In this document: positions 5,098 through 25,600 of the stretch, in pieces
Layout of the letters: the number at the start of each line of letters is the position of its first letter
Position numbering within the stretch: the stretch's first letter is position 1
Assembly: GCA_017615635.1 (NCBI GenBank)
Contig: JAFZZR010000186.1
Coordinates: 1-42,190 of the forward strand
From: Lentisphaeria bacterium
GTDB lineage: Bacteria > Verrucomicrobiota > Lentisphaeria > Victivallales > UBA1829
Length of the DNA stretch: 42,190 bases
Reading direction: 5' to 3'
The notes under the pieces: generated by a model
Database searches by the model: none
What the model saw: only the letters and a program-made list of their open reading frames with translations
What the model was told of the DNA's origin: nothing
Translations under genes and position numbers: made by a program

Positions 5098-5865
5098 ATG
5101 CTGAAGCTGGCGTTCTACGGAAAAGGGGGAATCGGGAAGTCCACGATCGTTTCATCGCTTGCGTGCGCCTTTGCCCGGTCCGGGCGGACGGTCATGCAGA
5201 TCGGCTGCGATCCCAAAGCCGATTCCACCGTGTCCCACTGTCAGGGCGAAAGGATCCCCACCGTGCTGGATCTCGTGCGTACCCGGGGCGACAGTTTCTC
5301 TCTGGACGAGATGGTCCGGAAGGGAACGGACGGCGTTATCTGCGCGGAGGCCGGAGGACCTGTCCCCGGAATGGGGTGCGCGGGGCGCGGCATCATAGCG
5401 GCGCTGGAGGCGCTGGAGCGGAAGGGGGCCTACCGGGAATACAGGCCGGACATCGTGCTCTACGATGTGCTTGGGGATGTGGTATGCGGCGGATTCGCCA
5501 TGCCCATGCGGAAAGGATATGCGGACGCCGTCTGCATCGTCACCTCGGGGGAAAACATGTCCATTCACGCGGCGGGCGGGATCGCGCTGGCCGTGAAGAA
5601 TTTTCAGGGGCGCGGCTACGCTTCGCTGGGCGGCTTCGTGCTGAACCGTCGGAACGTGGCGGATGAAGAGGAAAAGGTCCGGGCTCTGGCGGCGGACTTC
5701 GAATCGGAAATTCTGGGGGATCTGCCGTGGAGTCCGGAAATTCAGGAGGCGGAAAGACGGAACACCACTGCGGTGTCGGCGTTTCCCGAGTCCGGGATCT
5801 CGCATCGGATCCGGGAACTGGCGGACCGTCTTCTGCAGAAGGAAGGGGAGTGGCTGAAATGCTGA
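5098..5865 (+). CDS. NifH-like ATPase, Fe protein 1 (H1)
   Basis: This 255-residue protein has all Fe-protein hallmarks. They are a P-loop GKGGIGKST at residues 8-16, the GCDPKADST switch region at 36-44, and the two cysteines that in NifH bridge a [4Fe-4S] cluster between monomers (C94 in GMGCAGRG, C130 in [10 protein letters not shown]). Arg97 corresponds to the ADP-ribosylation Arg of NifH. It is shorter than NifH (about 270-295), lacking the C-terminal tail. The ATG at 5098 is preferred over 4990, which has no ribosome site and adds a charged, non-conserved stretch. It is expected to dimerise, hydrolyse ATP and pass electrons to component-1 partners, most likely the A-B pair just downstream; it overlaps A by 7 bp (ATGCTGA). 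Not a nitrogenase by context. Confidence 0.9.
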   Translation: MLKLAFYGKGGIGKSTIVSSLACAFARSGRTVMQIGCDPKADSTVSHCQGERIPTVLDLVRTRGDSFSLDEMVRKGTDGVICAEAGGPVPGMGCAGRGIIAALEALERKGAYREYRPDIVLYDVLGDVVCGGFAMPMRKGYADAVCIVTSGENMSIHAAGGIALAVKNFQGRGYASLGGFVLNRRNVADEEEKVRALAADFESEILGDLPWSPEIQEAERRNTTAVSAFPESGISHRIRELADRLLQKEGEWLKC

Positions 5866-7199
5866 AACGGGCATATGGACCCGGCGATATGAGCGGGGCG
5901 GAAGTCCGGATCGGACAGGCCGCCTTTCCCGCACCGTTCGCCTCCGGCCTGGAGTTCAGTTCTCCGGCCCGGGGCGTATGGAACATCGTGCACACGGGAA
6001 TGCTGATCCCGGGCGCACATCAGATTTATATCTGTGCCCGCGGATGTCTCCGGGGCGTGATCCTCACGGCGGCGGAGATGAATGCCATGGAGAGGATGTC
6101 CTGGGTGGCGCTGGAGGAAACGGATCTTTTCGACGGGCGTCTGGAAACGGGAATCGAAGAAGGCGTTGCGCACATCCTGCGAGGCATGAAACGGCGTCCG
6201 CCCTGCGTGCTTGTCTTCATCTCCTGCGTGCAGCAGTTCTCGGGGCTGGACTTCCCGCATGTGCTGGGCCGTCTGCGCGCGCAGTTTCCGGAGACCGACT
6301 TTGTGGATTGCTACATGAATCCGACCATGCGGAAGAGCGGACCCACGCCCGACCAGATCATGCGGCGTCAGCTGTACGCGCCGTTGAAGCGGCCGGAAAA
6401 GCGGGATCCGCGTGCCGTGTCCATGATCGGGAACGATCTGGGCCTCGATCCCGAATGCGAGCTTGTCCGGATGATCCGGGAGAACGGATACGACTACCGG
6501 GACATCACGCTCTGCCGTACATACGAGGAGTACAAAAGTCTGGCGGAGAGCGCGCTTTTGCTCACCACCATTCCTGCCGCGGTGCACGGCGCTTCCATTC
6601 TTGCGGAGCGCCTGGGCGTGCGGCATCTGGATATGACCATGAGCTGTTCTCCGGAGTCCATCGAATCTTCCCTGAAGCTCCTGGCGGAGGCGCTGGCCTT
6701 GCCGGAACCGGACTTCCGGAAGGGCAGGGAGCAGGCGGAGGAAGCGCTCCGCGCCGCGAAGGAGGAAATCGGAGATACGCCCATCGCTCTGGATTACACC
6801 GCGGTCCCCCGGCCCGTGTCCCTGGCAAGACTTCTGCTGGATCGCGGTTTCCGCGTGACCCGGATCCATGCGGACGTTTTTCTTCCGGAGGAACGGAATG
6901 ATTTCGAATATCTTCGGAAGACACATCCGGAGCTGACGGTTTCGGCCGCGGTCCATGCGAAAATGCGGTTTGCACCGCGTTTTGCCGAGACGGGGAACGG
7001 CGTCCTGGCCATCGGGCAGAAAGCCGCATGGTTTTGCGGGACGCGCCATTTCGTAAACATCGTTTCCGGAGGCGGGTTGTACGGATACAGCGGACTTGTC
7101 CGGCTGGCCGGACTGATGCGGGATGCGTTCCGGAATGAAAAGAACACGGAGGAGGTCATCCGACGCAAAGGCTTCGGATGCGAAAGCTGTCTGACATGA
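5859..7199 (+). CDS. nitrogenase component-1-like protein A (NifD-like)
   Basis: The protein has 446 residues and belongs to the nitrogenase component-1 oxidoreductase superfamily (Rossmann-like three-domain fold). Candidate cluster cysteines are C59 and C63 (in YICARGCLRG, the position of the NifD Cys88 loop) and C123 (VFISCVQQF, NifD Cys154 position). The C-terminal HFVNIVSGGGLYGYSGLVRL aligns with the NifD segment carrying the FeMo-cofactor histidine, but that His is not in place. The protein ends in an unusual Cys-x-x-Cys tail (GFGCESCLT). The start overlaps H1 by 7 bp with GGAAGGGGAG upstream, and its stop overlaps B by 4 bp. It probably forms a heteromer with B and accepts electrons from H1. 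The substrate is unknown. It also resembles a family I associate loosely with gut Clostridia. Confidence 0.85.
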   Translation: MLKRAYGPGDMSGAEVRIGQAAFPAPFASGLEFSSPARGVWNIVHTGMLIPGAHQIYICARGCLRGVILTAAEMNAMERMSWVALEETDLFDGRLETGIEEGVAHILRGMKRRPPCVLVFISCVQQFSGLDFPHVLGRLRAQFPETDFVDCYMNPTMRKSGPTPDQIMRRQLYAPLKRPEKRDPRAVSMIGNDLGLDPECELVRMIRENGYDYRDITLCRTYEEYKSLAESALLLTTIPAAVHGASILAERLGVRHLDMTMSCSPESIESSLKLLAEALALPEPDFRKGREQAEEALRAAKEEIGDTPIALDYTAVPRPVSLARLLLDRGFRVTRIHADVFLPEERNDFEYLRKTHPELTVSAAVHAKMRFAPRFAETGNGVLAIGQKAAWFCGTRHFVNIVSGGGLYGYSGLVRLAGLMRDAFRNEKNTEEVIRRKGFGCESCLT

Positions 7200-8359
7200 A
7201 GAACACGGCGAGAATCCTTTCCATTTATGCTTCGGATACGTCCGGGGTCTGCTCCATGCTCTACGAGCTGGGCGGTCTGGTGGTCGTGCATGACGCCTCC
7301 GGCTGCAACTCCACCTACAGCACCCACGACGAACCCCGGTGGTACGGGCAGGACAGCATGATCTACATTTCCGCGCTGACCGAAACGGATATGATCTTCG
7401 GCGGAGACGGGAAGCTGATCGGGGATACGCTGGAGGCGATCCGGACTCTCTCCCCGAGGTTCGCCGTTCTGTGCGGTTCGCCCATGCCCATGCTGACCGG
7501 GACGGATTTCGATGCGGTGGCGGCCGAAGTGGAAGCGAAGGCGGGCATCCCGGTTCTGCCGCTCCATACCAACGGCATGCGCTCGTATCTTTCCGGCGCT
7601 TCGGAGGCGCTGACGGCGCTTCTCGGGCGCTTCTGTTCGCCGGAGACCGAGGCGGGCCGTTCGGGCCGGATCCCGGTCAACATCCTGGGGGCGACTCCGC
7701 TGGATTTTTCCCGGTCGGAGCAAATCGGGTCCATCCGGTCGATTTTGACGTCCGCCGGATTCGAGATCGTTTCCGTCATGGCCATGGGCTCGAACCTGGA
7801 GGAGATCGCCGGAGCGGGCCGGGCGCGGGTCAACCTGGTGATATCGTCCTCGGGTCTGGCGGCGGCGGAATATCTGCGGAGAAAGTTCGGGACTCCGTGG
7901 GTGGCGGGCGTTCCGTACGGAGAGAAGACATCGCAGGCCCTGACCCGGAAACTGAAAGAGAGTGCGGAATCGGGAGAGAATTTTCCGTTTTGTTCGGATA
8001 GGATAGAACTTGATGAAGGACAAAGTGTTCTGATCGTCGGCGAGAGCGTGAACGCCGGATCGCTGGCCAAGGCGGCGCGGGAGGATCTCGGGATCCCCGC
8101 CCGGGCCGGGATCCCGGATGCGCTTCAACCGGTGCTGGCCGCGCCGCATGACCGGATCCTGACGGATGAAGACGATGCGGCTCTCGCCTTTGCTGAAAGT
8201 TCCGGCGTGGCGGCGGATCCTCTTTTTGCTCCCGTCTGTCCCGAATCGATTCCTTTTTACCGGCTGCCCCATGAGGCGTTTTCCGGACGCTGTTTCCGGG
8301 AACGGATCCCGAACCTCATGGGAGGCGGCCTGACCAGGAGGCTATTTGAATCATGCTGA
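7196..8359 (+). CDS. nitrogenase component-1-like protein B (NifK-like)
   Basis: The protein has 387 residues. The N-terminal layout [15 protein letters not shown], then [18 protein letters not shown], then [15 protein letters not shown] supplies C19, C37 and C93. Their order and spacing resemble the three NifK P-cluster cysteines (70, 95, 153). With A this gives six potential ligands, as in NifDK. The rest carries the GTPW and HTNG turns of the component-1 fold but no recognisable cofactor ligand. I use the ATG at 7196, which overlaps the stop of A (ATGA); an alternative start lies six codons upstream (7178). The 3' end overlaps H2 by 7 bp. Predicted partner of A. It is shorter than NifK, closer in size to reductases that lack a large cofactor. 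Reaction unknown. Confidence 0.82.
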
Positions 8360-9117
8360 AGATCGCCGTTTATGGAAAAGGCGGGATCGGGAAGTCCACG
8401 GTGACCGCCCATCTCTCCGCCGCCTTCGCCCGTCTGGGGAAAAAAGTCATTCAGATCGGATGTGATCCGAAGGCCGACTCCACGATCAATCTGCTGAACG
8501 GGGAGACGCCTGTTCCTGTCATGAACTATCTGCGGGAACACGACCGCGATCCGGAACACCTGGAGGAGATTTCCCGGGTGGGATTCGGCGGAGTCCTGTG
8601 CATCGAAACGGGCGGACCTACGCCGGGTCTCGGCTGTGCGGGCCGGGGGATCGTGACCACGTTCAGTCTGCTGGAGGACCTGAAACTCTTCGAGACGCGG
8701 AAGCCGGACGTGGTGCTGTACGACGTGCTGGGAGACGTGGTGTGCGGCGGTTTTGCGGCGCCGATCCGGGAGAACTACGCATCGCAGATCCTCATCGTCA
8801 CGTCCGGGGAAAAGATGGCACTCTACGCTGCTGGGAATATCCATTCCGCCGTAAAGAACTTTGCCGACCGGGCTTATGCAAAAGTCCGCGGGATCGTGTT
8901 CAACCGGCGCAACGTGGAAAACGAGGAGGCGAAGGTCCGCTCCTTCGCCGAGTCCGCGGGACTGCCCGTCATTGCCGATATTCCCCGGAGCAATGAGATC
9001 ATCCGCTGGGAGGATCAGGGAAAGACCGTGGTGGAGGGGGATCCGGATTCGGACATCAGCCGCCGTTTTCTGGAGCTGGCCCGAAGTCTGCTCCAGGATT
9101 CCGGAGAGGAGGCGTAA
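8353..9117 (+). CDS. NifH-like ATPase, Fe protein 2 (H2)
   Basis: A second Fe protein of 254 residues. It has P-loop GKGGIGKST at 8-16, GCDPKADST at 36-44, and cluster cysteines C95 (GLGCAGRG) and C131 ([10 protein letters not shown]), with Arg98 at the NifH Arg100 position. It is clearly paralogous to H1 (same motif order, same C-terminal truncation) but diverges in the helices that would face component 1, consistent with serving its own partners C and D. An AGGAGG ribosome site lies upstream and the start overlaps B by 7 bp, the same ATGCTGA junction as H1/A. That points to duplication of a whole H-D-K unit. Two Fe proteins in one operon outside nitrogenase, bacteriochlorophyll or coenzyme F430 loci is notable. 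Confidence 0.9.
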
Positions 9118-9120
9118 AAG

Positions 9121-10440
9121 ATGGCCGGACGGAATCAGGCGTTTTTCATTACGGCCGGAGATCTGGCGGCCCGCGGACGTGACAACGTGCCGGGCGAGCT
9201 GAAGTCTTCGGAAAATCTCGTATACAGTTCGCCTGCCACGCTCGCCTTCAATTCGCCGGGTGCTCAGGGATTCGGCGTCAAACGTGCCGGACTGGCCGTG
9301 CCCGGATCGGTAATGCTTCTGGTGGCGCCCCGGTGCTGCGGACGCAACACGTCTGCGCTGGGAACCGGCGGCGTACTGGCGGACCGGTTCTATTATCTGA
9401 TTCTGGATGAAACGGATATCGTGACCGGACGGCACCTGCGGAAAATTCCGGATGCTGTGAAGGAAGTCTGCGCCTCCCGGCCTGTGCGGCCTGACGCCGT
9501 CATGATCTGCATCACCTGCGTGGACGCGCTTCTGGGAACCGATATGGAACGGGTATGTCGGGCTTCCTCCGAGGCTGCGGGCGTTCCGGTCGTTCCCTGT
9601 TACATGTATGCGCTGACCCGTGAGGGCCGTGTGCCGCCCATGGTGTCCGTCCGGAAAAGCGTGTATTCCCTGCTGAAGCCGCGGCGGAAGGATCCGGCCT
9701 CGGTGAATCTTCTCGGATTCTTTTCCCCGCTGGCGGAGGATTGCGAACTGTACGAACTTCTGCGTCAGGCGGGAGTTCGCCATATCCGGGAGATATCCCG
9801 GTGCCGCGATTTCGCGGAGTATGAGGCCATGTCCGGGGCGAATTTCAATCTGGTGCTGAATCCCGAAGCGCGATACGCTGCGCTGGATCTGGAAAAACGG
9901 CTGGGCATTCCGTTCATCGAGCTCACAAGAATGTATCAGCTGGATAAGGTGCGCAATCAGTATGCTCTGTTTGCCCAAGCCGCCGGACTCCGGTTCGACG
10001 ATGCTCCGTTCTGCGAGGCGGCGGAACAGGCCGTGTCCGGATTCCGCGCCCGGTTCGGCGCTCTTTCCTTCTCCGTGGGCGAGTGGTTCAACGGCAATCC
10101 ATTCGAGACGGCGCTGGCTCTTGTCCGGTACGGATTCCGTGTTCCGGAAATCTTCGGTACGCCCGGGGACGTCTCTTTCCCGTACATCCGGCGACTTGCG
10201 CAGCTGAGCCCGGGAACGAAAATCTACTCCAATCTTTCGCCGACCATGCTCGCCTACGACGGACGGTCCGCCGGGTCCGGATTCGCCCTGGGGCAGGATG
10301 CCATGTACTATCATCCGGAGCTGCCGGGTCTCCGCTGGAACGGGGAGGATCAGCCGTTCGGATACGCCGGGATCCGGGGCCTGTTCCGCGGCATGACCGA
10401 GGTGCTGGCGTCCCGGGACGAGGGGAGGGCGGTCCGATGA
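9121..10440 (+). CDS. nitrogenase component-1-like protein C (NifD-like, second set)
   Basis: The protein has 439 residues and is a homologue of A by position and motifs. APRCCGRNTS gives C72/C73, where C73 aligns with A-C63, and ICITCVDALLGTDM gives C133, aligning with A-C123. The residue corresponding to A-C59 is alanine. The C-terminal GEDQPFGYAGIRGLFRGM matches the glycine-rich component-1 end, but there is no C-x-x-C tail. It starts 3 bp after H2 with a strong GGAGAGGAGG site. Fewer cluster ligands than A suggests a different or simpler cluster when paired with D. The H2-C-D set could act on a different substrate, or as a scaffold the way NifEN relates to NifDK; that is speculation. Confidence 0.82.
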   Translation: MAGRNQAFFITAGDLAARGRDNVPGELKSSENLVYSSPATLAFNSPGAQGFGVKRAGLAVPGSVMLLVAPRCCGRNTSALGTGGVLADRFYYLILDETDIVTGRHLRKIPDAVKEVCASRPVRPDAVMICITCVDALLGTDMERVCRASSEAAGVPVVPCYMYALTREGRVPPMVSVRKSVYSLLKPRRKDPASVNLLGFFSPLAEDCELYELLRQAGVRHIREISRCRDFAEYEAMSGANFNLVLNPEARYAALDLEKRLGIPFIELTRMYQLDKVRNQYALFAQAAGLRFDDAPFCEAAEQAVSGFRARFGALSFSVGEWFNGNPFETALALVRYGFRVPEIFGTPGDVSFPYIRRLAQLSPGTKIYSNLSPTMLAYDGRSAGSGFALGQDAMYYHPELPGLRWNGEDQPFGYAGIRGLFRGMTEVLASRDEGRAVR

Positions 10441-11480
10441 AGAATCTTCTGCGGTATCTTTCCCCGTTTGCCCCGGATCAGTCCGGCGCGGTCTCCGTGC
10501 TCTTCCCGCAGGGCGGACTGATCGTGATCTGCGATGCGGGCGGCTGCGCGGGCAATATCTGCGGGTTCGACGAGCCCCGGTGGTTCACCGGACGCTGTGC
10601 GCTTTTCAGCGCCGCGCTGCGGGATATGGATGCCATTCTCGGGCGGGACGACAAACTGATCGCCAAGCTGGCATCCGCCATGGAAGACGTGGGAACGGAT
10701 TTTTCCGCGCTGATCGGGACGCCGGTGCCCGCGGTCATCGGGACGGATTTCCGTGCTTTGAAACGTGCAGCGGAGCGCCGTACGGGCAAGCCGTGTCTTG
10801 TGATTCCGGCCACGGGTACGAAATTCTACGATGTCGGCGCGCAGGAGGCGTATCTGGAACTGGTCCGGACTTTTTCGCTGGAACGTCTTTCCATTGAAGA
10901 AGGAACGATCGGAGTCCTGGGTGCCATCCCGCCGGATCTGAGTTTGATCCATCCGGGAGAAGCCGTGCGGGCCGCGCTGGATCCCGGAAGGGAAAGGCGG
11001 ATCCTCTGCTTCGAATCGCCGGACGACTTCCGGAATGCCTCCGCAGCGGAGAAAAATCTGGTGGTGTCCCCGTGCGGAGTCGCCGCCGCCGAGCTCCTGA
11101 AGGAACGGTTCGGCACCCCGTGGGAGATCGCCGTCCCCTGGCTCCCCGAATCCTTGAAACAGCGTCTCGCCGCTCTTCACGGAGGCCGGATCCTGGTGAT
11201 CCATCAGCAGTTTGCGGCCTGCCGGGTGCGGGAGCTGCTGCCGGACTGCGAGGTGACGACGGGGACTTTCTTCCGGACCTGTCCCGAATGGATGAAGCCG
11301 GGGGACATGGCGTTTTCCGGTGAAGGGGATTTTGCGGACGCCGTGGAGTCCGGCGGATTCGATGCGGTGATCGGCGATCCCGTTTTGAAGCGGGCGGTCC
11401 CGCATTTCCGGGGAGAATGGATCCCGTTCATTCACTTTGCCGTTTCCGGCGTTCTGGAACAGAAGGAAGAGGAATCATGA
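10437..11480 (+). CDS. nitrogenase component-1-like protein D (NifK-like, second set)
   Basis: The protein has 347 residues and is a paralogue of B. The shared motif (D-A-x-G-C-...-DEPRW, then GTPVPAVIGTDF) aligns well, but of B's three cysteines only C37 remains: B-C19 is Val and B-C93 is Ile in D. Extra cysteines at 32, 42 and 53 might compensate. The start overlaps C (ATGA) and the stop overlaps hypF (ATGA), so translation of the Nif-like and Hyp parts is probably coupled. It is the shortest component-1 subunit here and may be a structural partner for C. Function unknown. Confidence 0.8.
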   Translation: MKNLLRYLSPFAPDQSGAVSVLFPQGGLIVICDAGGCAGNICGFDEPRWFTGRCALFSAALRDMDAILGRDDKLIAKLASAMEDVGTDFSALIGTPVPAVIGTDFRALKRAAERRTGKPCLVIPATGTKFYDVGAQEAYLELVRTFSLERLSIEEGTIGVLGAIPPDLSLIHPGEAVRAALDPGRERRILCFESPDDFRNASAAEKNLVVSPCGVAAAELLKERFGTPWEIAVPWLPESLKQRLAALHGGRILVIHQQFAACRVRELLPDCEVTTGTFFRTCPEWMKPGDMAFSGEGDFADAVESGGFDAVIGDPVLKRAVPHFRGEWIPFIHFAVSGVLEQKEEES

Positions 11481-13795
11481 CGGTGCACCTCGTTCCCGCC
11501 AAACGGATCCGCATATACGGCATCGTTCAGGGCGTCGGATTCCGCCCCTTCGTCAGCCGGGCCGCCTCGCGTCTCGGATTGAAGGGGAGCGTGGCGAACC
11601 GGGGATCGTATGTGGAAGTGCATGTGCAGGGGCCGGAGGCGGCGGAACAGGCGTTTCTCTCCGTGCTGGAGCATGAGGCTCCGGAACGGTCCGCGATTCT
11701 GCGGATCGAGGTGAAGGAGACGAACGAACCGGAGGTAAAATCCTTTGAAATCGCGGAAAGCGAATACGAGAGGGGAAATATATTCGTTTCGCCGGACATA
11801 GCCGCCTGTCCCGCCTGCGAGCGGGAACTGTACGATCCGGCGAATCCCCGGTATCTTCACCCGTTCATCAACTGCACGGCCTGCGGTCCGCGCCTGACGA
11901 TTTTGGACGCCATGCCGTATGACCGGGAACGGACCAGCATGAATGATTTTCCCATGTGCGGATTCTGTCGCGGAGAGTATACGGATCCGGCGACCCGGCG
12001 GTACGATGCCCAGCCGGTGTGCTGTCCGTCCTGCGGACCGGAGGTGTATCTGGTCGGGCGTCCGGAACGGGGCGCGGAGGCGATCCGCGTCGTTCGTGAG
12101 GCTCTGACGGAGGGCCGGATCGCGGCGGTGAAGGGGATCGGCGGATTCCATCTCTGCTGCGATGCGCACCGGGCGGACGCCGTTACGCTGTTGCGGACTC
12201 GGAAACACCGGCCCATGAAGCCGTTTGCCCTGATGATGCGGGATCTGGAGACCGTCCGCCGTCACTGCATTGTTTCGCCGGAGGAGGAAGAGATCCTATC
12301 CGGACACCAGAAGCCGATCCTGCTGCTGAAGCGGAAAGCTGGTTCGGATTTGCCGGATGTCCTTGCTCCGAACTGCGGAACGCTGGGCGTCATGCTGCCT
12401 TATGCGCCGCTTCACATGCTGCTTTTCCGCTCGGATGATACGCTGGACGCACGCATGACCGATTCGCTCGTCATGACCAGCGGGAACGTCTCCGGCGCAC
12501 CCATCTGCCGCTCGAATGAGGATGCGCTTTCCGAAATCGCTCCATTCTGCGATCTGATCCTTTCCCACAACCGGAGGATCCGGCTCCGGGCGGACGATTC
12601 CGTCATGGAGTTTTTCCATTGTGCGCCGTATATGGTTCGGCGTTCCCGGGGATACGCGCCTCTTCCGGTTTCCGTTTCCGGCAATTTTCACGGATCGGTG
12701 CTGGGGATCGGCGGAGAGCTGAAGAATACCTTCTGCCTGGGGCACGAGGATTTGTTCTATCTGTCTCCCTACATTGGAGATATGGCGGATCTCCGTACCG
12801 TGAAGGCACTGCGGGAATCGGTGGACCGCCTGAGCTCGCTTCTGGAAATACGGCCGGAGATCGCAGTCTGCGATCCGCATCCGCTGTACAACTCCTCCCG
12901 GACGGCGGAAGAACTCGGATTGCCCGTCCTGAAGGTGCAGCACCATTACGCACATATTCTTTCCTGTATGGCGGAAAACGATTATATGCAGGAGGTTATC
13001 GGAGTCTCTTTTGACGGCACGGGCTTCGGGACCGACGGGACCATCTGGGGCGGCGAGTTCCTCCTGTGCCGGCTGGACGGTTTTCAGCGGCTCGGACATA
13101 TCCGGTCCTTCGTTCAGGCGGGCGGCGACGCCTCGGCACGGGACGCCTGGCGGTCGGCTTTCTCCCTGATCCGGAACGTGTATCGCGACCGGACGTCGGA
13201 GATTGCGGAAAGCCTTTCGCTTTGCTCTGCACAGGAACGGCGGACTTTGGAATTCATGATGGATCGCGGAATCAACTGCGCCGTATCCACCAGCGCGGGC
13301 CGTCTCTTCGATGCCGTGAGCGCGATCCTGGGGATCTGCCGATGCTCCACGTTCGAGGGCGAAGCGGCCATGGCGCTCCAGCACGCGGCGGAACAGGCCG
13401 CCGGATCGGAAGAGCCGAATCCCGCTGCCTGCGAATGGACTCCGGAGATCTGCGGCGACCTGTTCATCCTTCCCTCGGAACGTCTGGCGGAACAGGCGGC
13501 GGAAGCCCGGCTGACCGGGACCGGTATCGCGAAGGCGGCCCGGGCATTCCACGAGGGGCTGGCGGATATGGTGTGCGCCGGATGCCGTCTCGCCCGGGAC
13601 CGTACGGGCCGGGACGTGTGCGCGCTGAGCGGGGGCGTCTTCCAGAACACGCTGCTTCTGGAGCTTTGTCTGACCCGGCTGGAGAAAGAGGGATTCCGCG
13701 TGCTCCGGCACAGTCTGATCCCGCCCAACGACGGCGGGATCGCGCTGGGACAGGCGCTGTACGGCATGAATTATCTGAACACAAACGGAAAATAA
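11477..13795 (+). CDS. hypF: carbamoyltransferase HypF
   Basis: This 772-residue protein has the full HypF architecture. An acylphosphatase domain occupies about 9-95 (IYGIVQGVGFRPFV). Two zinc-finger-like four-Cys blocks follow (C111/C114/C133/C136 and C161/C164/C182-183/C186), then a YrdC-like nucleotidyl-transfer domain (about 200-380, with KHRPMKPFALM) and a Kae1-like domain with LKVQHHYAHI and GVSFDGTGFGTDGTIWGGEF. HypF uses ATP and carbamoyl phosphate to carbamoylate the C-terminal Cys of HypE, the first step in making the CN ligands of [NiFe] hydrogenase. It overlaps nif-like D by 4 bp and has an AGGAAGAGGA site. Length and motifs suggest a working enzyme. Confidence 0.96.
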   Translation: MTVHLVPAKRIRIYGIVQGVGFRPFVSRAASRLGLKGSVANRGSYVEVHVQGPEAAEQAFLSVLEHEAPERSAILRIEVKETNEPEVKSFEIAESEYERGNIFVSPDIAACPACERELYDPANPRYLHPFINCTACGPRLTILDAMPYDRERTSMNDFPMCGFCRGEYTDPATRRYDAQPVCCPSCGPEVYLVGRPERGAEAIRVVREALTEGRIAAVKGIGGFHLCCDAHRADAVTLLRTRKHRPMKPFALMMRDLETVRRHCIVSPEEEEILSGHQKPILLLKRKAGSDLPDVLAPNCGTLGVMLPYAPLHMLLFRSDDTLDARMTDSLVMTSGNVSGAPICRSNEDALSEIAPFCDLILSHNRRIRLRADDSVMEFFHCAPYMVRRSRGYAPLPVSVSGNFHGSVLGIGGELKNTFCLGHEDLFYLSPYIGDMADLRTVKALRESVDRLSSLLEIRPEIAVCDPHPLYNSSRTAEELGLPVLKVQHHYAHILSCMAENDYMQEVIGVSFDGTGFGTDGTIWGGEFLLCRLDGFQRLGHIRSFVQAGGDASARDAWRSAFSLIRNVYRDRTSEIAESLSLCSAQERRTLEFMMDRGINCAVSTSAGRLFDAVSAILGICRCSTFEGEAAMALQHAAEQAAGSEEPNPAACEWTPEICGDLFILPSERLAEQAAEARLTGTGIAKAARAFHEGLADMVCAGCRLARDRTGRDVCALSGGVFQNTLLLELCLTRLEKEGFRVLRHSLIPPNDGGIALGQALYGMNYLNTNGK

Positions 13796-13812
13796 CATAA
13801 GGAGCTGCCGCT

Positions 13813-14046
13813 ATGTGTGTTGGAATATCCGCAAGAGTGGTGAGGATCGACGACGGGACCGCCCTGATCGATGCCTCGGGCGCGGAACGGAAGGTATCCG
13901 CCGAACTGCTGGAGGATCTGGAACCCGGCGACTACGTCATGGTCCATGCGGGCGTGGCGATCGCGAAGATCGAAGGTCCTTCCGGCGAGGAAACGGCAAA
14001 ACTCATGGAGGAGCTGAACAATGAAGAGCGCACGGGAGATCATTGA
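13813..14046 (+). CDS. hypC: hydrogenase maturation chaperone HypC
   Basis: This 77-residue OB-fold chaperone keeps the essential N-terminal Met-Cys that holds the Fe(CN)2(CO) unit with HypD. The next residues read MCVGISARV where HypC proteins usually have M-C-x-x-(I/V)-P-G, so the conserved Pro is replaced by Ser. The body (VMVHAGVAIAKI) matches the family. An AAGGAG site precedes the ATG and the 3' end overlaps hypD by 26 bp. HypC normally carries the iron unit to the hydrogenase large subunit; no such subunit is encoded in this window. The altered neck may affect partner choice. Confidence 0.92.
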   Translation: MCVGISARVVRIDDGTALIDASGAERKVSAELLEDLEPGDYVMVHAGVAIAKIEGPSGEETAKLMEELNNEERTGDH

Positions 14047-15064
14047 CTCCTATGACGGCAGACCTCTGCGGATCATGGAGGTCTGCGGAACTCATACGCA
14101 TGAGATCTTCCGGCTGGGGATCCGCCGGATCCTGCCGCCGGGATTGAAGCTGATCTCGGGACCCGGCTGTCCCGTCTGCGTGACTCCCTGCGGATATATC
14201 GACGAGGCCGTGTCTCTGGCGCTGGAGAAGAACGCCGTGATCTGCACCTTCGGCGACCTGATCCGCGTGCCCGGTTCGAATATGAGCCTGGCCTCCGCCC
14301 GTTCCCGGGGCGCGGAGATCCGGACTGTCTACTCGCCGCTGGATGCGCTGGAACTCGCGCAGTCGGATCCGGACCGTCAGGTGGTGTTTCTTTCGGTCGG
14401 GTTCGAGACGACGACGCCGGGGAGCTGTCTGGCTGTCCGGAAGGCGGCGGAACGGGGCGTGAAGAATTTTTCGATTCTGAGCGCGAACAAGACAATGCCC
14501 CGGGCCTACGAGGCTCTGAAAGGAAGCGCGGACGCCTTCCTGTATCCGGGCCATGTGAGCGTAATGACGGGCACGGCTCTGTACGAACGGCTCTGCGCGG
14601 AGGGCGTGTCGGGCATCGTCACGGGGTTTACTGCCGACGAGATCCTCACGGCCCTGGCCGCCGTCGTGGAGCTGTCCCGAAGCGGAAAACCCTTCTTCCG
14701 CAATTGCTATCCGCGCGTGGTGCGTCCCGAAGGCAATCCGGCTGCGGTCCGCCTGATGGATCAGGTCATGGAGCCCTGCGATGCCGAATGGCGGGGGCTG
14801 GGCATGATTCCGGGCTCGGGCCTGAAATTCCGCGATCGCTTCGCCCCGTTCGACGCCCGTGTGAAGTTCGGCATATCCGAACTCCGCGGCCGGGACAATC
14901 CCGCGTGCAGCTGCGGACGGATCCTCCGGGGCGAATGCATGCCTCCGGATTGTCCGCTTTTCGGAAAAGTATGTACACCGGCTCATCCGGCGGGCGCCTG
15001 CATGGTGTCCGGGGAGGGAGCCTGTTCCGCATTTTACCAATATGGAGAGAAGATCGATGAATGA
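14021..15064 (+). CDS. hypD: hydrogenase maturation factor HypD
   Basis: The protein has 347 residues. It carries the HypD signatures EVCGTHTHE (C22, the iron-handling Cys), GPGCPVCVTPCGYID (C50, C53, C57) and VGFETTTPG, and a Cys-rich C-terminus (CSCGRILRGECMPPDCPLFG and beyond) that binds the [4Fe-4S] cluster. HypD is the redox scaffold on which HypC and HypE assemble Fe(CN)2(CO). The start overlaps hypC by 26 bp and its end overlaps hypE. All key cysteines are present, so the CN/CO-iron synthesis branch appears intact. Confidence 0.96.
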   Translation: MKSAREIIDSYDGRPLRIMEVCGTHTHEIFRLGIRRILPPGLKLISGPGCPVCVTPCGYIDEAVSLALEKNAVICTFGDLIRVPGSNMSLASARSRGAEIRTVYSPLDALELAQSDPDRQVVFLSVGFETTTPGSCLAVRKAAERGVKNFSILSANKTMPRAYEALKGSADAFLYPGHVSVMTGTALYERLCAEGVSGIVTGFTADEILTALAAVVELSRSGKPFFRNCYPRVVRPEGNPAAVRLMDQVMEPCDAEWRGLGMIPGSGLKFRDRFAPFDARVKFGISELRGRDNPACSCGRILRGECMPPDCPLFGKVCTPAHPAGACMVSGEGACSAFYQYGEKIDE

Positions 15065-16064
15065 ACGAGTGACCCTGGCGCACGGCGCGGGCGGACAGCA
15101 GACGACGGAGCTGATCGACCGCGTATTCAAGGCCCATTTTTCCAATCCCGATTTCACCGCCGACGATGCGGCCGTTCTTACCCTGGACGCGGGCCGGCTG
15201 GCTTTCACCACCGATGGATTCATCGTTTCCCCCTGTGAATTCCCCGGCGGCAATATCGGCAAACTGAGCATCTGCGGGACGGTCAACGATCTTTCCTGCA
15301 TGGGGGCCAAACCCCTGTATATGACCTGCGCCTTCGTGATCGAAGAAGGCTTTCCCATGGAGACGCTGGAACGGATCGCCGCCGCCATGGCTGCCACGGC
15401 GAAGGAGGCCGGAGTCCGCATCGTGGCGGGCGATACGAAAGTCGCGGGCAGGGGGCAGGTCGACGGCGTTTTCATCACGACCACGGGGATCGGGCGCGTC
15501 ATGGAGAAGGCAAATCTCTCCGGGTCCCGGGCGAAGGCCGGGGATGCCGTCATCGTCTCCGGCGACATCGGACGGCACGGCTGCACGATCCTTCTGGCTC
15601 GAAACGAGTTCGGGATCGAAGCCCCGGATGTGAAAAGTGACTGCGCTCCCCTGTGGAGCACGGTGGAACCGATTTTGCGCGCCGTTCCCGGGATCCATGT
15701 GATACGGGACGCCACGAGGGGCGGCGTGGGGACAGTCCTCTACGAGATCGCGGGCCAGAGCCGCGTGGGAATCTGTCTGGACGCCGCCTCGGTGCCGGTC
15801 GCGCCGGGCGTACGAGGGGTCTGTGGCATGCTGGGACTGGAGCCGCTGTATCTGGCCTGCGAGGGCCGGATCGTGATTTTTGCGCCCAAAGAGTCTGCCC
15901 CGGAAATCGTGAAGACGCTCCGTTCCTGTCCCGGATCCGAAGACGCGGCCGTGATCGGCGAAGTCACCGAAGAGGATCCCGGAAAAGTCGTCATGCTTAC
16001 GGAGATCGGCGCGAAGACTCTTCTGCCCCGTCCGGGCGGCGAACTTCTCCCCCGGATCTGCTGA
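15057..16064 (+). CDS. hypE: hydrogenase maturation factor HypE
   Basis: This 335-residue protein is in the PurM/AIR-synthetase superfamily. It begins VTLAHGAGGQQTTELI and ends in the diagnostic PRIC-COOH. That terminal Cys is carbamoylated by HypF and dehydrated to the thiocyanate that donates CN. The ATG at 15057 has GGAGAG 7-8 bases upstream; an upstream ATG at 15042 would place that site inside the gene. It is the last gene of the operon, and 16 bp separate it from the convergent phosphatase gene. hypA and hypB (nickel insertion), a maturation protease and hydrogenase subunits are not in this window. Confidence 0.96.
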   Translation: MNERVTLAHGAGGQQTTELIDRVFKAHFSNPDFTADDAAVLTLDAGRLAFTTDGFIVSPCEFPGGNIGKLSICGTVNDLSCMGAKPLYMTCAFVIEEGFPMETLERIAAAMAATAKEAGVRIVAGDTKVAGRGQVDGVFITTTGIGRVMEKANLSGSRAKAGDAVIVSGDIGRHGCTILLARNEFGIEAPDVKSDCAPLWSTVEPILRAVPGIHVIRDATRGGVGTVLYEIAGQSRVGICLDAASVPVAPGVRGVCGMLGLEPLYLACEGRIVIFAPKESAPEIVKTLRSCPGSEDAAVIGEVTEEDPGKVVMLTEIGAKTLLPRPGGELLPRIC

Positions 16065-16080: not shown

Positions 16081-18501
16081 TCAGGCTTCGGCTTTCCCGG
16101 GAAGCTTCATGCCGATGGTGAGGACGTTCTCTCCTGCATCGGTCCGTTCATAGGCCACCGAGGAGGAGTTTTTCCGCACCAGGAAGATCCCGAGTCCGCC
16201 GATGGGCCGCTCTTCCGCGTTCAGCGTGATATCCGGATCCGTGTGCTTCAGGGGATCGAATGCGGTTCCCGTATCCGTGAACCGGAGGCGGAATTCTCCG
16301 TCCTCCTCGAAAAGGTCGATCCGCAGGTCTTCTTCCCTTCCGGGCGGATAGGCGTAGGATGCCACATTGACGAAGATCTCTTCGAAGGAGACGGCAAGCC
16401 TTGTCCGATCGGCCGGAGAAAGCCTCTGGAAGAGGGAGGAAGAGTTCAGAAACTCATTTGCCTTTGCCAGTTGATCCGCCGTGGCTTTGAAGACCGCGCT
16501 CTGCACTTTCGACTGTTCCGGCTTGGAAAAATGGACCGCCAGCATGGTGATGTCGTCTGCCTGTTCCGCGCCTTCGGAGAAGCTCCGGACGGCGGAATAC
16601 ACCGAGGAGATCAGATCTTCGGGCGCATCGGAGGAGGCGGCCTTCACGGCGTCCAGCAGCCTCTCATCGCCGAACATGGTTTTGCCGTCGGCATGGAATG
16701 CTTCGGTTATGCCGTCGGTATAAAGGAGGATCGTGTCCCCGTCCTGAAGCGGATGGCTGTCGGAACGGTAGGACATGTTTTCCAGCGCGGCCAGAGGCGG
16801 CCCGTGCAGACGGCGCAGGAATTCGGCGGAGCCGTCCACGTGGCGGATGACGGGCGGATTGTGTCCGGCGCAGGTGAATCGGAGTTCGCCGGTCCCGGTG
16901 TCGAGGAATCCGGCCCAGCAGGTGATGAACATACCGGCTCCGTTCTTACGCGAAAGAGCATCGTTCAGATCGTTCATCAGCCGGTCCGGTGAATCGGAGG
17001 AAAGGGTCAGAGTCCGCTGGAGGGTTTGGGCTCCGGCCATAAAGATGGAGGCAGGGATGCCTTTTCCGGAAACGTCTCCGACGAGGAATGCGATGTGCTT
17101 TCCGTCGCCCAGGGGAAAGATGTCGTAAAGGTCGCCGCCGACACCACGGGCCGGGATCAGCAGAGCTGCGGCGGAGACTCCGGGGCAGAAGGGGTAGGGG
17201 GGCAGATCGTCCGGCAGGAGGTTCTGCTGAATGGTTTTTGCAGCATTGATCTCACCTTCCGCTCTCTCTCTGGCCACCACGCTTTCCCGGAATTTTTCGA
17301 TATATTCGGAGAGAGCCATCTGCATCCGGCGGAATGAACGTGCCAGGGAGGCCACTTCATCCCCGCTGGGGAAGGAGGGGACCGGAGCGGTGAAGTTTCC
17401 TTTTCCCACCTCGTAGGCCACGGCGGAAAGGGTTTCCAGCGGCTTGGTGAGACGTTTGCAGACGAAAAAGATGATGCCCGTTATCATGATCAGGAAGAGC
17501 AGGGTATAGAGTCCGAGCCGGATGACGGAGGGCAGAATGTTCCACAAGGTCCAGTTCCGGGGAACGGCGGTGGCCACGAGCCATCCGTTGACGCAGGTCG
17601 CGTAATAGAGCTCGCATCCTTCGGTATCCCTCCCCAGCAAAGGCGCCTTCGTAAACGTTGTCATGCCGGATCCGTTCCGGAGCATTTCCCGGGCTTTTTC
17701 CCGGTCGGCGGGATCGTGATCCTCCGGCGCATCGCACAGGGAGAACAGAGTCTGCTTGCCGTGCTCCGGATGGGAAGGACAGCAGGAGATGTGTCCGAAC
17801 TGATTGATCAGCAGGGTTTCCGTCTTTTCGGGAAGGGTGATCGAATCCGAACCGTAGAGCGGGTGAAGATAGCGGGTAAAGGAGTCCACGGGCAGATCCA
17901 GGTCGACGATTCCGGCGTAGATCCGCTCGCCGGTCTTTTTGTCGACGCGGTAGAACGGCACGACGTAGGAAAGGAACCGGAGACCGGGATTTGCATCGGA
18001 TTCGTAGGCGGACGTCCAGACGGGTTTCTGCCGGAGGGCAGGAAGAATGTACCAGTCCTTGAGAAAATAATCGAACGGATTTTTGTCGCTCCAGCGGATG
18101 AATCTGTACTGACCGGTGCCCATTGTTCCGATGAATCCGTTGTACGTCTCTCCGGGAATAAGACGGTCCTTGTCCCACAAAAGCGATAGTGCAACGATTT
18201 CCGGACACTGTTCATGGATCCCCACCGCCAGCGCCTGCAGAAACGGTTCGACGTCTTCCGGCGATTCGGGTGGGAACCGTTCCAGTTCGGTGGCGATCAG
18301 GTCGGCCGCCATATCCACCTGCACGAACAGCTTGTCGAGGTCGTTGGCCATTTCGCGGACGGAGGTTTTCGCATACTCCTGCATGGTGTCCTTCATGCTG
18401 CGGAGCCAGCGGATCGAAAGAAGAAGGCCGATGATGAGGATAAAAAGGAGCAGTGAGGCACTGATCCACAGACTGAGCCGAACGGGAATGCGAAGTCTCA
18501 T
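16081..18501 (-). CDS. membrane sensor with PP2C (RsbU/SpoIIE) phosphatase and C-terminal anti-sigma-type kinase domain
   Basis: The protein has 806 residues. A first membrane helix (about 10-30) is followed by a periplasmic dCache-like sensing domain (to about 325), a second helix, a HAMP segment (TKPLETLSAVAYEVGKGNF) and a linker helix (AAKTIQQNLLP, the classic start of RsbU-type PP2C). The PP2C domain follows (RGVGGDLYDIF, VGDVSGKGIPAS, YTDGITEA), and residues of about 680-806 are an HATPase_c_2/RsbW-like domain (FEEIFVNVASYAYP, GGLGIFLVRK). Such proteins switch sigma factors through a STAS-domain antagonist; both opposing activities are fused here. The gene overlaps the binding-protein gene upstream by 4 bp, so that protein may feed it a ligand signal. 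No STAS gene is seen nearby. Confidence 0.9.
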   Translation of the reverse strand: MRLRIPVRLSLWISASLLLFILIIGLLLSIRWLRSMKDTMQEYAKTSVREMANDLDKLFVQVDMAADLIATELERFPPESPEDVEPFLQALAVGIHEQCPEIVALSLLWDKDRLIPGETYNGFIGTMGTGQYRFIRWSDKNPFDYFLKDWYILPALRQKPVWTSAYESDANPGLRFLSYVVPFYRVDKKTGERIYAGIVDLDLPVDSFTRYLHPLYGSDSITLPEKTETLLINQFGHISCCPSHPEHGKQTLFSLCDAPEDHDPADREKAREMLRNGSGMTTFTKAPLLGRDTEGCELYYATCVNGWLVATAVPRNWTLWNILPSVIRLGLYTLLFLIMITGIIFFVCKRLTKPLETLSAVAYEVGKGNFTAPVPSFPSGDEVASLARSFRRMQMALSEYIEKFRESVVARERAEGEINAAKTIQQNLLPDDLPPYPFCPGVSAAALLIPARGVGGDLYDIFPLGDGKHIAFLVGDVSGKGIPASIFMAGAQTLQRTLTLSSDSPDRLMNDLNDALSRKNGAGMFITCWAGFLDTGTGELRFTCAGHNPPVIRHVDGSAEFLRRLHGPPLAALENMSYRSDSHPLQDGDTILLYTDGITEAFHADGKTMFGDERLLDAVKAASSDAPEDLISSVYSAVRSFSEGAEQADDITMLAVHFSKPEQSKVQSAVFKATADQLAKANEFLNSSSLFQRLSPADRTRLAVSFEEIFVNVASYAYPPGREEDLRIDLFEEDGEFRLRFTDTGTAFDPLKHTDPDITLNAEERPIGGLGIFLVRKNSSSVAYERTDAGENVLTIGMKLPGKAEA

Positions 18502-19475
18502 TTCAGGTCCTCCGGGGCAAATTCTTCAAAGCGGACCGAGTCTGCGGGCACGCCGGCGGCTTCCATTCCCTGCTCGAAGGAGGCCCGGCGAAGCTGTCCG
18601 TCATTGGTTTCCGCCTGAAAAAGCCTTTCCATGACGTTCAGCATATTTTTCTGGTAGATTTTATGAAAGAACACGCCGGATCTGTCGCAGTTCTTCTTCA
18701 CGATCCGCAGTGCGCGATCCTTGTCGGCAAAGGCGGAATGCCATCCGGCCATGACGGCCCGGCGGATCTTCCGGCATACGTCGGGTGAGGTCTGCCAGGT
18801 CTTTTTCAGACAGTACAGTCCGTCGTCGGCCAGATCGGGAATCGCATCGTTGAGACGGAAAACCGAAATTTCATCCCGGTTGATTCCGGAAAAATACAGC
18901 TTGCTGCATTCATCGTATTCCACACCGCCGATGACCGACGTGCACCGGAAAAGCAGCAGGTTGACGGGTGAGAGGACCGGCAGCAGCTCCGCATCATGTA
19001 TCTTTTCCTTGCGGAGGAAACAGAGGAAGGGATTCCGGAGATCCGGGGGGAACCAGAGCCCGATCCGTTTTCCGGAAAGATCGGCAGGCGTCCGTATGCC
19101 GTCGGCCTTCCGTGCGATAAGGACCAGCGCGCTGGCCTGGTGTATCTGCATGATATTGACGAATCTGCCGTTGCCGGTCGTTCTCTGCAGCGCCGAGCTC
19201 AGCCAGGTTACGACGAAATCGGCTTCTCCCCGGTCCAGCATGCTCAGAACGTCTTCTCCGCCTTTTTCCGGATGGTCGATCCGGACGCGCAGTCCTTCTT
19301 TTTCGAACAGTCCGTCTTCCTGCGCCAGGTAAAAACCGGCAAACTCGGCCTGAGGGAGCCAGAGCATCCGGATCCGTATCTCCTTTTCCCCGGAGGCGGA
19401 TTCCTCTCCCCGGGCCGCGCCGGGGAGAAGGAGCGCAAGGATCAGGAGACATGCTGCAAATCGTGCGGGGGACAT
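18498..19475 (-). CDS. NMT1/THI5-like periplasmic solute-binding protein
   Basis: The protein has 325 residues with a clear Sec signal peptide (residues 1-23, ending GAARG-E). The mature part starts with the NMT1/SsuA/THI5 pattern (RMLWLPQAEFAGFYLAQEDGLFEKEGL), then GEADFVVTWLSSAL and DLSGKRIGLWFP. This family binds pyrimidines, sulfonates, nitrate-like anions or related small molecules for ABC import. No permease or ATPase is adjacent. Instead the gene overlaps, by an ATGA, the sensor-phosphatase gene downstream and follows pyrC by 2 bp. I infer a sensing role, possibly for a pyrimidine-type compound, rather than uptake; the ligand is unproven. Confidence 0.82.
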   Translation of the reverse strand: MSPARFAACLLILALLLPGAARGEESASGEKEIRIRMLWLPQAEFAGFYLAQEDGLFEKEGLRVRIDHPEKGGEDVLSMLDRGEADFVVTWLSSALQRTTGNGRFVNIMQIHQASALVLIARKADGIRTPADLSGKRIGLWFPPDLRNPFLCFLRKEKIHDAELLPVLSPVNLLLFRCTSVIGGVEYDECSKLYFSGINRDEISVFRLNDAIPDLADDGLYCLKKTWQTSPDVCRKIRRAVMAGWHSAFADKDRALRIVKKNCDRSGVFFHKIYQKNMLNVMERLFQAETNDGQLRRASFEQGMEAAGVPADSVRFEEFAPEDLK

Positions 19476-19477
19476 GA

Positions 19478-20782
19478 TCAGTTCGCCGTGTTTTCAGGAA
19501 GGATGCTGAAGACGCATTTGCCGTCCACGAAGGTGGCGGCCGTTCTGCCTTTCGCATGATAGCCGTCGAAGGGCGTGTTCCTGGATTTCGAGTAGAAGTT
19601 GTTCTTGTCGATCACATGCTCCGTATCGGGATCCAGGACCGTGATATCGGCGGGACGTCCGGGCGTCAGGGTGCCGAGGGGCAGTCCCAGAACGTCCGCG
19701 GGTCCCTTTGTGAATTTGGAAACCAGTTCGGGCAGGGACAAGATCCCTTTGTGATAGAGTTCGGTGAGGGTGACGGGGACGGCGGTTTCCAGTCCGATGA
19801 TTCCGAAGGGGGCATCATCGAATTCCACCAGCTTCGCCGTGGCCGTATGAGGCGCATGGTCCGTGGCGATGACCGTGATGGTGCCGTCGCGGAGTCCTTC
19901 GATAACGGCCAGCCGGTCCTCTTCGGAACGGAGAGGCGGATTCATCTTGTAATTGGTGTCGAATCTCTTGATCTCCACGTCGGTCAGGGCGATATGATGG
20001 GGCGTGGCCTCGGCGGAGACGGGGATCCCCTTTTTCCGCGCGGCACGGACCAGCTCTACGGACTCGCGGCAGCTGAGGTGCTGCATGTGGACTTTCCAGT
20101 TGGCCATGCGGGCAAGGATGATGTTCCGCGCCACGATGATCTCTTCCGCCGCGGACGCCATCCCCTTCATGCCCAGAAGTACGGACCAGTAGCCTTCATG
20201 CATGACGCCGCCGCTGGCCAGAACGCTGTCTTCGCAGTGGTCCAGTACAGGCAGCTGGAACTGGCTGGCATATTCCACCAGATGCCGCATGAGTTCGTGA
20301 TTCTGAATGCACTTCCCGTCGTCGGAAAGAGCGGCTACGCCGGCGGCCTTGAGAGAGCCGACCGGGGCCATTTCCTTCCCTTCCAGTCCTTTGCTCAGGG
20401 CTCCGCAGGGAAGGACATGGACAACGCCTTCCCGGGCTGCGTAGTCTTTCAGATACTGGATGGCTCCGGCATTGTCGGCGGGCGGATTGGTGTTGGGCAT
20501 GGCCACGATGGAGGTGAATCCTCCGGCGGCCGCCGCCATGGTCCCGGTTCGGATCGTTTCGGCATCGGTCCGTCCGGGCTGACGGAGATGCACGTGCATG
20601 TCGATGAATCCCGGACACACCACGTATCCCTGAAGATTCAGCACATCGGCATCCTGTTCGGAAATGCTTCCGGGTTCCGCCAGGATCCCGTTTTTCCAGC
20701 AGACGTCCCGCACGTCGTCGGTCCCGGACACCGGGTCGATCACACGTGCGCCTTTCAGAATACAGCAGCGATCGTTTTTCAT
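19478..20782 (-). CDS. pyrC: dihydroorotase
   Basis: The protein has 434 residues, a class I dihydroorotase that cyclises carbamoyl-aspartate to dihydroorotate in de novo pyrimidine synthesis. Visible are the metal-binding DMHVHLRQPGR at about residue 59, the PNTNPPADN loop, EATPHHIALTD and the catalytic-Asp motif ATDHAPHT. The start overlaps the pyrB stop (ATGA), so the two are translated in series, as is common when PyrB and PyrC form a complex. All essential residues seem present. Confidence 0.96.
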   Translation of the reverse strand: MKNDRCCILKGARVIDPVSGTDDVRDVCWKNGILAEPGSISEQDADVLNLQGYVVCPGFIDMHVHLRQPGRTDAETIRTGTMAAAAGGFTSIVAMPNTNPPADNAGAIQYLKDYAAREGVVHVLPCGALSKGLEGKEMAPVGSLKAAGVAALSDDGKCIQNHELMRHLVEYASQFQLPVLDHCEDSVLASGGVMHEGYWSVLLGMKGMASAAEEIIVARNIILARMANWKVHMQHLSCRESVELVRAARKKGIPVSAEATPHHIALTDVEIKRFDTNYKMNPPLRSEEDRLAVIEGLRDGTITVIATDHAPHTATAKLVEFDDAPFGIIGLETAVPVTLTELYHKGILSLPELVSKFTKGPADVLGLPLGTLTPGRPADITVLDPDTEHVIDKNNFYSKSRNTPFDGYHAKGRTAATFVDGKCVFSILPENTAN

Positions 20783-21708: not shown

Positions 21709-21720
21709 GACTTTTCCGCC

Positions 21721-22290: not shown

Positions 22291-22308
22291 ATTGATGATC
22301 CATTTCTG

Positions 22309-22893: not shown

Positions 22894-22925
22894 GGCGTGC
22901 TTCCATCCGGTAACGGGTTGCGTGA

Positions 22926-22954
22926 AATGTATCATGCGGGGCGTGTTTTTTCAA
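22926..22954 (-). promoter_or_regulatory. predicted promoter of the methyltransferase-pyrRBC operon
   Basis: On the minus strand TTGAAA (22954-22949) and TACATT (22931-22926) are exactly 17 bp apart. The predicted start of transcription is near 22919, about 26 bases before the methyltransferase ATG. This arrangement also rules against the longer start at 22935. Confidence 0.55.
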
Positions 22955-22988
22955 CCCCCGGAACACAAATTTTTGCCGGAAAAGCGGA

Positions 22989-23020
22989 GGCCCCGGACCG
23001 GATCAGCGGGCTTCGGGGCC
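22989..23020 (-). terminator. hairpin terminator after the DUF4838 gene
   Basis: GGCCCCG (22989-22995) pairs with CGGGGCC (23014-23020) around an 18-base loop, 21 bp past the DUF4838 stop on the minus strand, followed by a short T-rich run (CTTTTCC). The loop and right arm contain one copy of the 20-bp repeat that also covers the stop codon of the glycosyltransferase gene at 27009. Confidence 0.5.
22998..23017. repeat. 20-bp direct repeat, left copy
   Basis: CCGGATCAGCGGGCTTCGGG occurs here and, identically and in the same orientation, at 27004-27023. The two copies bracket the DUF4838, HAD and pseudopilin genes. Read on the minus strand both copies encode ...Glu-Ala-Arg-stop, the end of the glycosyltransferase gene, so this copy may be a duplicate of that gene end. 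Confidence 0.7.
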
Positions 23021-23040
23021 GTTTCAAAACGCATGACCGA

Positions 23041-25482: not shown

Positions 25483-25600
25483 GACTGCAGTTCCTCGGGG
25501 ACCTCCATCAGCATCTTGCTTGATGAAAATTCCGCTTGTTTTGGCTTGAAAATCGTCAACAAATATTTTGTATTCCGCATCAGGTTAATGTCAAAGTCCG

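Follow-up and report, generated by a model that had tools for sequence, protein, structure and literature searches.

In the maturation of [FeFe]-hydrogenases by HydE, HydF, and HydG, HydE uses the Fe(CO)2CN synthon of HydG, and, to our knowledge, HydG is regarded as indispensable for making these enzymes. HydG makes CO and CN as the Fe(CO)2CN synthon (PMC9431212 and references therein), and all five CO and CN ligands of the H-cluster are reported to be traced to tyrosine (PMC3105041). In the maturation of [NiFe]-hydrogenases, HypE and HypF make cyanide and HypC and HypD assemble Fe(CN)2CO, whereupon HypC-family chaperones carry the unit and set its target (PMC8692609, PMC11565642, PMC9002611, PMC12130793). 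It has been proposed that CO could come from CO2-related adducts found on a HypC-family protein (PMC8692609).

Two earlier studies touch on the genes described here. Dos Santos et al. 2012 (PMC3464626) included one sentence pointing out that, in Coprococcus catus and further Firmicutes, nitrogenase-like genes adjoin those for hydrogenase maturation; the main text of that paper offers only a possible role in active-site metallocluster assembly, with no test, no link to HydG or [FeFe]-hydrogenase, and no distribution. A 2022 survey of acetogens (PMC9431212) noted, as separate findings with no explanation, the presence of HydE and HydF in the absence of HydG and that of HypCDEF in the absence of HypAB. 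In open-licence papers, we found no earlier description joining these two anomalies; preprints were outside our scope, and an earlier report elsewhere is possible.

Hyp genes at the end of a ten-gene run

The window analyzed here is the whole 42,190-nt stretch of DNA from a Lentisphaeria bacterium, and the metagenome-assembled genome (MAG) holding it comprises 3.72 Mb in 204 contigs and is 88.7% complete. A preliminary description of the window, made from its letters alone, had reported a complete and seemingly intact hypCDEF set, and this was borne out: the four genes are present (Table 1), and the products of 4/4 scored above the cut-off of equivalog or subfamily models. The residues on which that description relied are also in place. 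HypE ends in LLPRIC, HypC begins with MC, HypD contains C22, C50/C53, and the C-terminal set of cluster cysteines, HypF contains the acylphosphatase, CxxC, and HHxAH motifs, and the named catalytic residues of all four proteins are invariant in alignments of 54–68 homologs. Formation of Fe(CN)2CO by these proteins is inferred from this gene content and from the residues kept.

The preliminary description had also found no HypA, HypB, or [NiFe]-hydrogenase large subunit to receive the iron unit in the window, and had proposed a genome-wide scan for them. In that scan, the absence extended to the whole MAG: neither HypA nor HypB was found, nor was a [NiFe] large subunit (PF00374 search), within the limits of a MAG that is 88.7% complete. 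One case would have refuted the description: hypAB together with a [NiFe]-hydrogenase that has no hypCDEF of its own, at another site in the genome. A search for this case found none. The MAG contains a single copy of HypD.

Two features had gone unreported. The hyp genes make up the 3′ portion of a run of ten co-directional genes (5098–16064), mostly with short overlaps, in the order nflH1-A-B-nflH2-C-D-hypF-C-D-E, so that they form the tail of a unit containing two nitrogenase-like modules; and the genome does encode a hydrogenase, of the [FeFe] type. Profile comparison identified nflA and nflC (E 1e−44), and likewise nflB and nflD (E 7e−73), as paralogs, indicating that the run contains two tandem copies of a module composed of an Fe protein and two subunits. 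Downstream of hypE, the opposite strand (window 16081–26969) encodes a SpoIIE/HAMP sensor, an NMT1-type binding protein, an amidohydrolase, an ornithine/aspartate carbamoyltransferase, a phosphoribosyltransferase, and a DUF4838 protein, with no sign of a link to the nfl-hyp unit.

Table 1. Genes of the nfl-hyp run and the features by which each was assigned
Gene	Product	Position	Strand	Features
nflH1	NifH-type Fe protein, 255 aa	5098-5865	+	PF00142 270 bits; below nifH and CfbC equivalog cut-offs; C94, C130 (cluster ligands) and P-loop Lys invariant
nflA	Nitrogenase component-1-like, 446 aa	5859-7199	+	C59/C63/C123; C-terminal CxxC tail (GCESCLT); nflC paralog; weak profile match to NifE
nflB	Nitrogenase component-1-like, 393 aa	7178-8359	+	PF00148 120 bits; single invariant Cys C43
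nflH2	Second NifH-type Fe protein, 254 aa	8353-9117	+	PF00142 284 bits; C95/C131 invariant
nflC	Nitrogenase-like subunit, most conserved, 439 aa	9121-10440	+	PF00148 96 bits; C72/C73/C130/C133 invariant
nflD	Nitrogenase-like subunit, 347 aa	10437-11480	+	PF00148 53 bits; C37/C42 invariant; nflB paralog
hypF	Carbamoyltransferase	11477-13795	+	TIGR00143 743 bits, cut-off 466; 4-bp overlap with nflD
hypC	Fe(CN)2CO chaperone	13813-14046	+	TIGR00074 64 bits, cut-off 48; PF01455; N-terminal Met-Cys; His45 conserved
hypD	Scaffold	14021-15064	+	TIGR00075 395 bits, cut-off 193; functional cysteines all kept; nfl-linked clade
hypE		15042-16064	+	TIGR02124 413 bits, cut-off 252; terminal PRIC

Comparison of Nfl proteins with known nitrogenase-like systems

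The Nfl proteins resemble NifDK and NifEN with their Fe protein in combining NifH-type ATPases with heteromeric component-1 folds, and the tandem paralogous modules recall NifDK and NifEN. However, the Nfl proteins that were scanned lie far below the NifH, NifD, NifK, NifE, and NifN equivalog cut-offs (for example, 77 bits vs 505 for nifE and 293 vs 394 for nifH), and the Cys that serves as ligand of the FeMo-cofactor or L-cluster (NifD Cys275) is absent, Ser, Asn, or Leu being aligned there in NflB, NflD, NflC, and NflA, with Asn in NflC. NflA is left out of the cut-off comparisons, having not been scanned in the correct frame against NCBIfam. A FeMo-cofactor-type enzyme was rejected on these missing equivalog scores and on the lack of a Cys275 equivalent. 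With CfbCD (F430), DPOR, and COR, the Nfl proteins would share ATP-driven electron delivery without a FeMo-cofactor, but the corresponding cut-offs are again unmet (CfbC, 289 vs 402; CfbD, 25 vs 268; BchB, 62 vs 490), and no tetrapyrrole genes recur at nfl loci. The chains of methylthio-alkane reductase (MarHDK) are only distant profile and fold matches, and the cofactor Cys is absent in Nfl. In AlphaFold2 models, the nearest folds are NifEN and DPOR, including DPOR-B, for NflB (pLDDT 82) and NifK, NifD, and NifEN for NflC (pLDDT 86).

The conserved cysteines of NflA–D are compatible with an Fe-S cluster at a subunit interface, which remains an inference. The C-terminal CxxC tail of NflA (KGxGCxSC; window 7158–7199), a candidate metal-transfer tail, occurs in 67/71 homologs and was not seen at the end of NflC. 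An in-frame TGA encoding selenocysteine was considered for the nflC homologs and rejected, as none was found inside the genes.

Conservation of the unit and its neighbors

About 30 of the 198 class genomes contain strong homologs of nflC or nflA. When 84,980 species genomes were scanned, 192 related stretches emerged, and the best 80 of these 192 loci were kept together with 20 loci from the class, the two sets overlapping for Lentisphaeria. Wherever the contig was long enough, the ten-gene unit was complete (20/20 class loci and 80/80 scan loci), and members were missing only at contig ends. The unit occurs in two permuted arrangements, H1-A-B-H2-C-D-hypFCDE and H2-C-D-hypFCDE-H1-A-B, the latter mostly in Lachnospiraceae/Eubacterium and in Clostridium ljungdahlii and C. 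ragsdalei. Its carriers belong to Lentisphaeria/Victivallales, Firmicutes (Lachnospiraceae, Ruminococcus, Clostridium), Spirochaetaceae, and Synergistaceae.

Two gene families recur beside the unit, at 26 loci each and with representatives above the equivalog cut-offs: HydE, in most cases immediately upstream of nflH1, and HydF. HydG was not seen there. On the complete chromosome of Ruminococcus bicirculans 80/3, the order is a TM1266-type hydrogenase regulator, hydF, hydE, nflH1-A-B-H2-C-D, a gene for a 133-aa protein without assigned function (L220:12389-12787), and hypF-C-D-E, and in another genome (G044), an [FeFe]-hydrogenase gene and hydF adjoin the unit. The carriers share HydE, HydF, and a group A [FeFe]-hydrogenase with HydEFG maturation, and in R. 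bicirculans also the TM1266 regulator. In a HydG-containing genome (G137), hydG lies between hydE and hydF (hydE-hydG-hydF), whereas several carriers have hydF-hydE followed by nfl-hyp, with ten other genes in place of the gene for the tyrosine lyase HydG, the maker of CO and CN.

Mutual exclusion with HydG

The distribution of HydG was examined in 80 genomes, comprising 50 carriers of the unit (27 of the class and 23 others, including 8 isolates) and, from the class, 30 non-carriers. HydG above cut-off was found in 0/50 carriers vs 26/30 non-carriers (Fisher p 4e−17) and, for Lentisphaeria only, in 0/27 carriers vs 26/30 non-carriers (p 3e−12). The p values are inflated by shared ancestry, most of the tested genomes are MAGs, and there was no control set of non-carrier Firmicutes. 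In the same genomes, an [FeFe]-hydrogenase (PF02906) was present in 49/50 carriers and 29/30 non-carriers, and HydF above cut-off in 49/50 and 27/30; the carrier exceptions are one genome without a detected [FeFe]-hydrogenase (G088) and another without HydF (G113). The strongest sub-threshold HydG matches in carriers are ThiH (2-iminoacetate synthase), and one of them (L217), 22 bits below the thiH cut-off, still matches thiH best. Although HydG may have been lost to assembly gaps in single MAGs, this could hardly have happened in 50/50 genomes that include 8 isolates. Among the four HydG-negative non-carriers, one (G017) also lacks [FeFe]-hydrogenase and HydF, one (G064) lacks HydF, and two (G101 and G116) have HydG-containing sister species, so that assembly gaps are the likely, if not demonstrated, cause of absence in these two. 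Outside the genomes that we tested, three species that contain HypCDEF (C. drakei, C. scatologenes, and C. autoethanogenum) were credited with a HydG in a published survey of motifs.

The exchange was also observed within genera. A genome of the window's genus (G090) and another of genus g9 (G103) contain HydG without nfl genes or HypD, whereas the window and 12 other g9 genomes carry nfl-hyp, HydG being absent in the window's genome and in 9/9 g9 carriers tested. The window's genome encodes HydE (315 bits, cut-off 255; G000:C114), HydF (503 bits, cut-off 326; G000:C165), and a group A6 [FeFe]-hydrogenase (group A6 model, 850 bits; G000:C161) with all three H-cluster motifs (TSCCPGW, MPCQAKKYE, and EIMACPGGCINGGG), and has no HydG above cut-off. 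The preliminary description had anticipated a recipient that either does not need nickel or is encoded elsewhere, and both hold for the best-supported client, the iron-only H-cluster of this [FeFe]-hydrogenase, which is encoded on another contig. The HydE proteins of carriers intermingle with those of HydG-containing genomes and are not separable by sequence, so that the substrate supplied to HydE is probably the same in both groups.

Proposed mechanism

We consider it highly probable, on the strength of comparative genomics only and without any experiment, that HypCDEF together with the Nfl complexes replaces HydG in supplying the H-cluster with its Fe-CO/CN synthon. What was observed directly is which genes are present, that the unit is conserved, and that it and HydG exclude each other in genomes that retain HydE, HydF, and [FeFe]-hydrogenase. 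In the proposed route, HypF and HypE would supply cyanide from carbamoyl phosphate, and HypC and HypD would build an iron center bearing CN and CO. NflH1-AB and NflH2-CD, as putative ATP-driven nitrogenase-like reductases, would convert or complete the HypCD iron unit, and the converted unit would then feed HydE and HydF in place of the Fe(CO)2(CN) synthon of HydG. The usual chemistry of HypCDEF, the passage of the iron unit to HydE, and the role of Nfl are inferred only.

One point against HydG replacement is that the CN:CO ratio of Fe(CN)2CO, the known product of HypCDEF, does not fit the H-cluster, so that a conversion not yet described is needed. Because the H-cluster requires two CN and three CO on two irons, whereas HypCD makes two CN and one CO on one, Nfl is inferred most likely to form CO reductively, with HypC-bound CO2 as a possible starting material, and to rebalance CN to CO; the presence of two ATP-driven low-potential reductases beside a dedicated HypC also suggests, by inference, that CO is formed by reduction and that the ligands on iron are rebalanced. 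A more specific version, which on present evidence could equally well prove right or wrong, is that the Nfl complexes are nitrogenase-fold builders of an organometallic cofactor, which would use two Fe proteins and ATP to turn CO2 or a HypC-bound precursor into iron-bound CO and to convert the Fe(CN)2CO of HypCD into Fe(CO)2(CN) for HydE.

Alternative clients and roles

The hyp genes of the window resemble [NiFe] maturation (HypA–F) in that HypC, HypD, HypE, and HypF match curated models and keep their catalytic cysteines, but the genome lacks HypA, HypB, and the large subunit, the hyp genes are joined to nitrogenase-like genes in one run, and the HypD belongs to a separate clade. Nfl-linked HypD from three phyla forms a single clade (99/99) apart from the hydrogenase-linked (Ech) HypD, even that of the same genomes. 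Across the 198 class genomes, HypD occurred only alongside a [NiFe] large subunit or the nfl unit: the 21 genomes with HypD and without a large subunit were nfl carriers in 21/21 cases (G087 by a weak partial match), and HypD was found in 0 of the remaining genomes lacking a large subunit. The carriers with [NiFe] large-subunit matches (20/78) comprise 18 with short, Ech-type proteins, in which both CxxC motifs were present in those inspected, and 2 with group-1-like proteins (C. ljungdahlii and C. ragsdalei).

The Ech loci of Lentisphaeria carriers (L131-L143) have their own hypC-D-E with hypA and hypB and no hypF nearby, and Ech may share HypF with the nfl unit. The Ech loci of three Firmicutes (L144, L145, and L146 in G241, G235, and G242, respectively) have only a hypC of their own, the single hypD of the genome lying in the nfl unit, which suggests one HypDEF machinery with two client-specific HypC chaperones. 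In C. ljungdahlii (L219) and C. ragsdalei (L111), the group-1-like [NiFe]-hydrogenase, whose activity is not established, occurs without HypA/HypB, and the only hypD is again in the nfl unit. Seven carriers (G207, G209, G210, G212, G225, G229, and G230) have HypA and HypB above cut-off and no detected [NiFe] large subunit.

These data bear on the possibility that the client of the hyp genes is a [NiFe]-hydrogenase, absent from the MAG or encoded elsewhere, with Nfl aiding assembly of its active site, which is one possible reading of the sentence of Dos Santos et al. The 20 carriers with a large subunit and the five genomes with only one hypD found (G235, G242, G241, C. ljungdahlii, and C. ragsdalei) would fit such a client. 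It cannot account for the 58/78 carriers without a large subunit (PF00374), which include 12/12 tested carriers of genus g9 and the complete genome of R. bicirculans, nor for the second hypCDE with hypA/hypB that lies beside Ech in most Ech-bearing carriers, 37–47% identical to that of the window and of a different HypD clade, and the window's own genome has neither HypA, HypB, nor a large subunit. Searches for PF00374, HypA, HypB, and HypD, covering 78 carriers and the 198 genomes of the class, led us to reject a [NiFe]-hydrogenase client as a general explanation; it is largely refuted, and we give it scarcely any credence. It is also improbable, if somewhat less so, that the Nfl complexes are themselves the client, forming a new nitrogenase-like enzyme with an Fe(CN)2CO-type cofactor for an unknown reduction, the loss of HydG being coincidental or a side effect. 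In favor of such an enzyme, nfl and hyp genes always occur together, the Nfl subunits contain many invariant polar residues, and the module duplication resembles a catalytic NifDK with a scaffold NifEN; left unexplained are HydG in 0/50 vs 26/30 genomes with HydE, HydF, and [FeFe]-hydrogenase kept, the hydF-hydE-nfl-hyp operons, the TM1266 regulator, and the within-genus swaps, and genes for substrate transport or metabolism do not recur widely next to the cluster.

A variant that does not exclude HydG replacement by the whole unit, and that we regard as possible and still unlikely, is that HypCDEF alone replaces HydG, with Nfl acting elsewhere in the pathway, for example, on the bridging dithiomethylamine, in iron priming, or by supplying HydE or HypD with low-potential electrons. 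CN and CO on iron are already within the reach of HypCDEF, and HypD is described as a redox-active scaffold in two reports (PMC9900092, PMC6886295). However, species with HydG make the bridge without Nfl, the new need created by the loss of HydG is for CO and CN on iron, and the H-cluster calls for a CN:CO ratio other than that of the Hyp product.

Implications for H-cluster assembly

The unit very probably builds the H-cluster by a route, with HypCDEF and the Nfl complexes jointly standing in for HydG, of which we found no earlier description. If the replacement is real, it would explain together both puzzles of C. ljungdahlii and its relatives, the lack of HydG and the presence of HypCDEF without HypAB (PMC9431212), assign a first function to a large nitrogenase-like family that has none so far, and add new tools for the production of iron cofactors with CO and CN ligands. 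If the Nfl complexes are indeed nitrogenase-fold cofactor builders, H-cluster assembly would have a second, tyrosine-independent origin from parts of [NiFe]-hydrogenase maturation and nitrogenase. HydG replacement would mean that a second maturation route for [FeFe]-hydrogenases operates in many hydrogen producers of the gut and rumen and in industrial acetogens.
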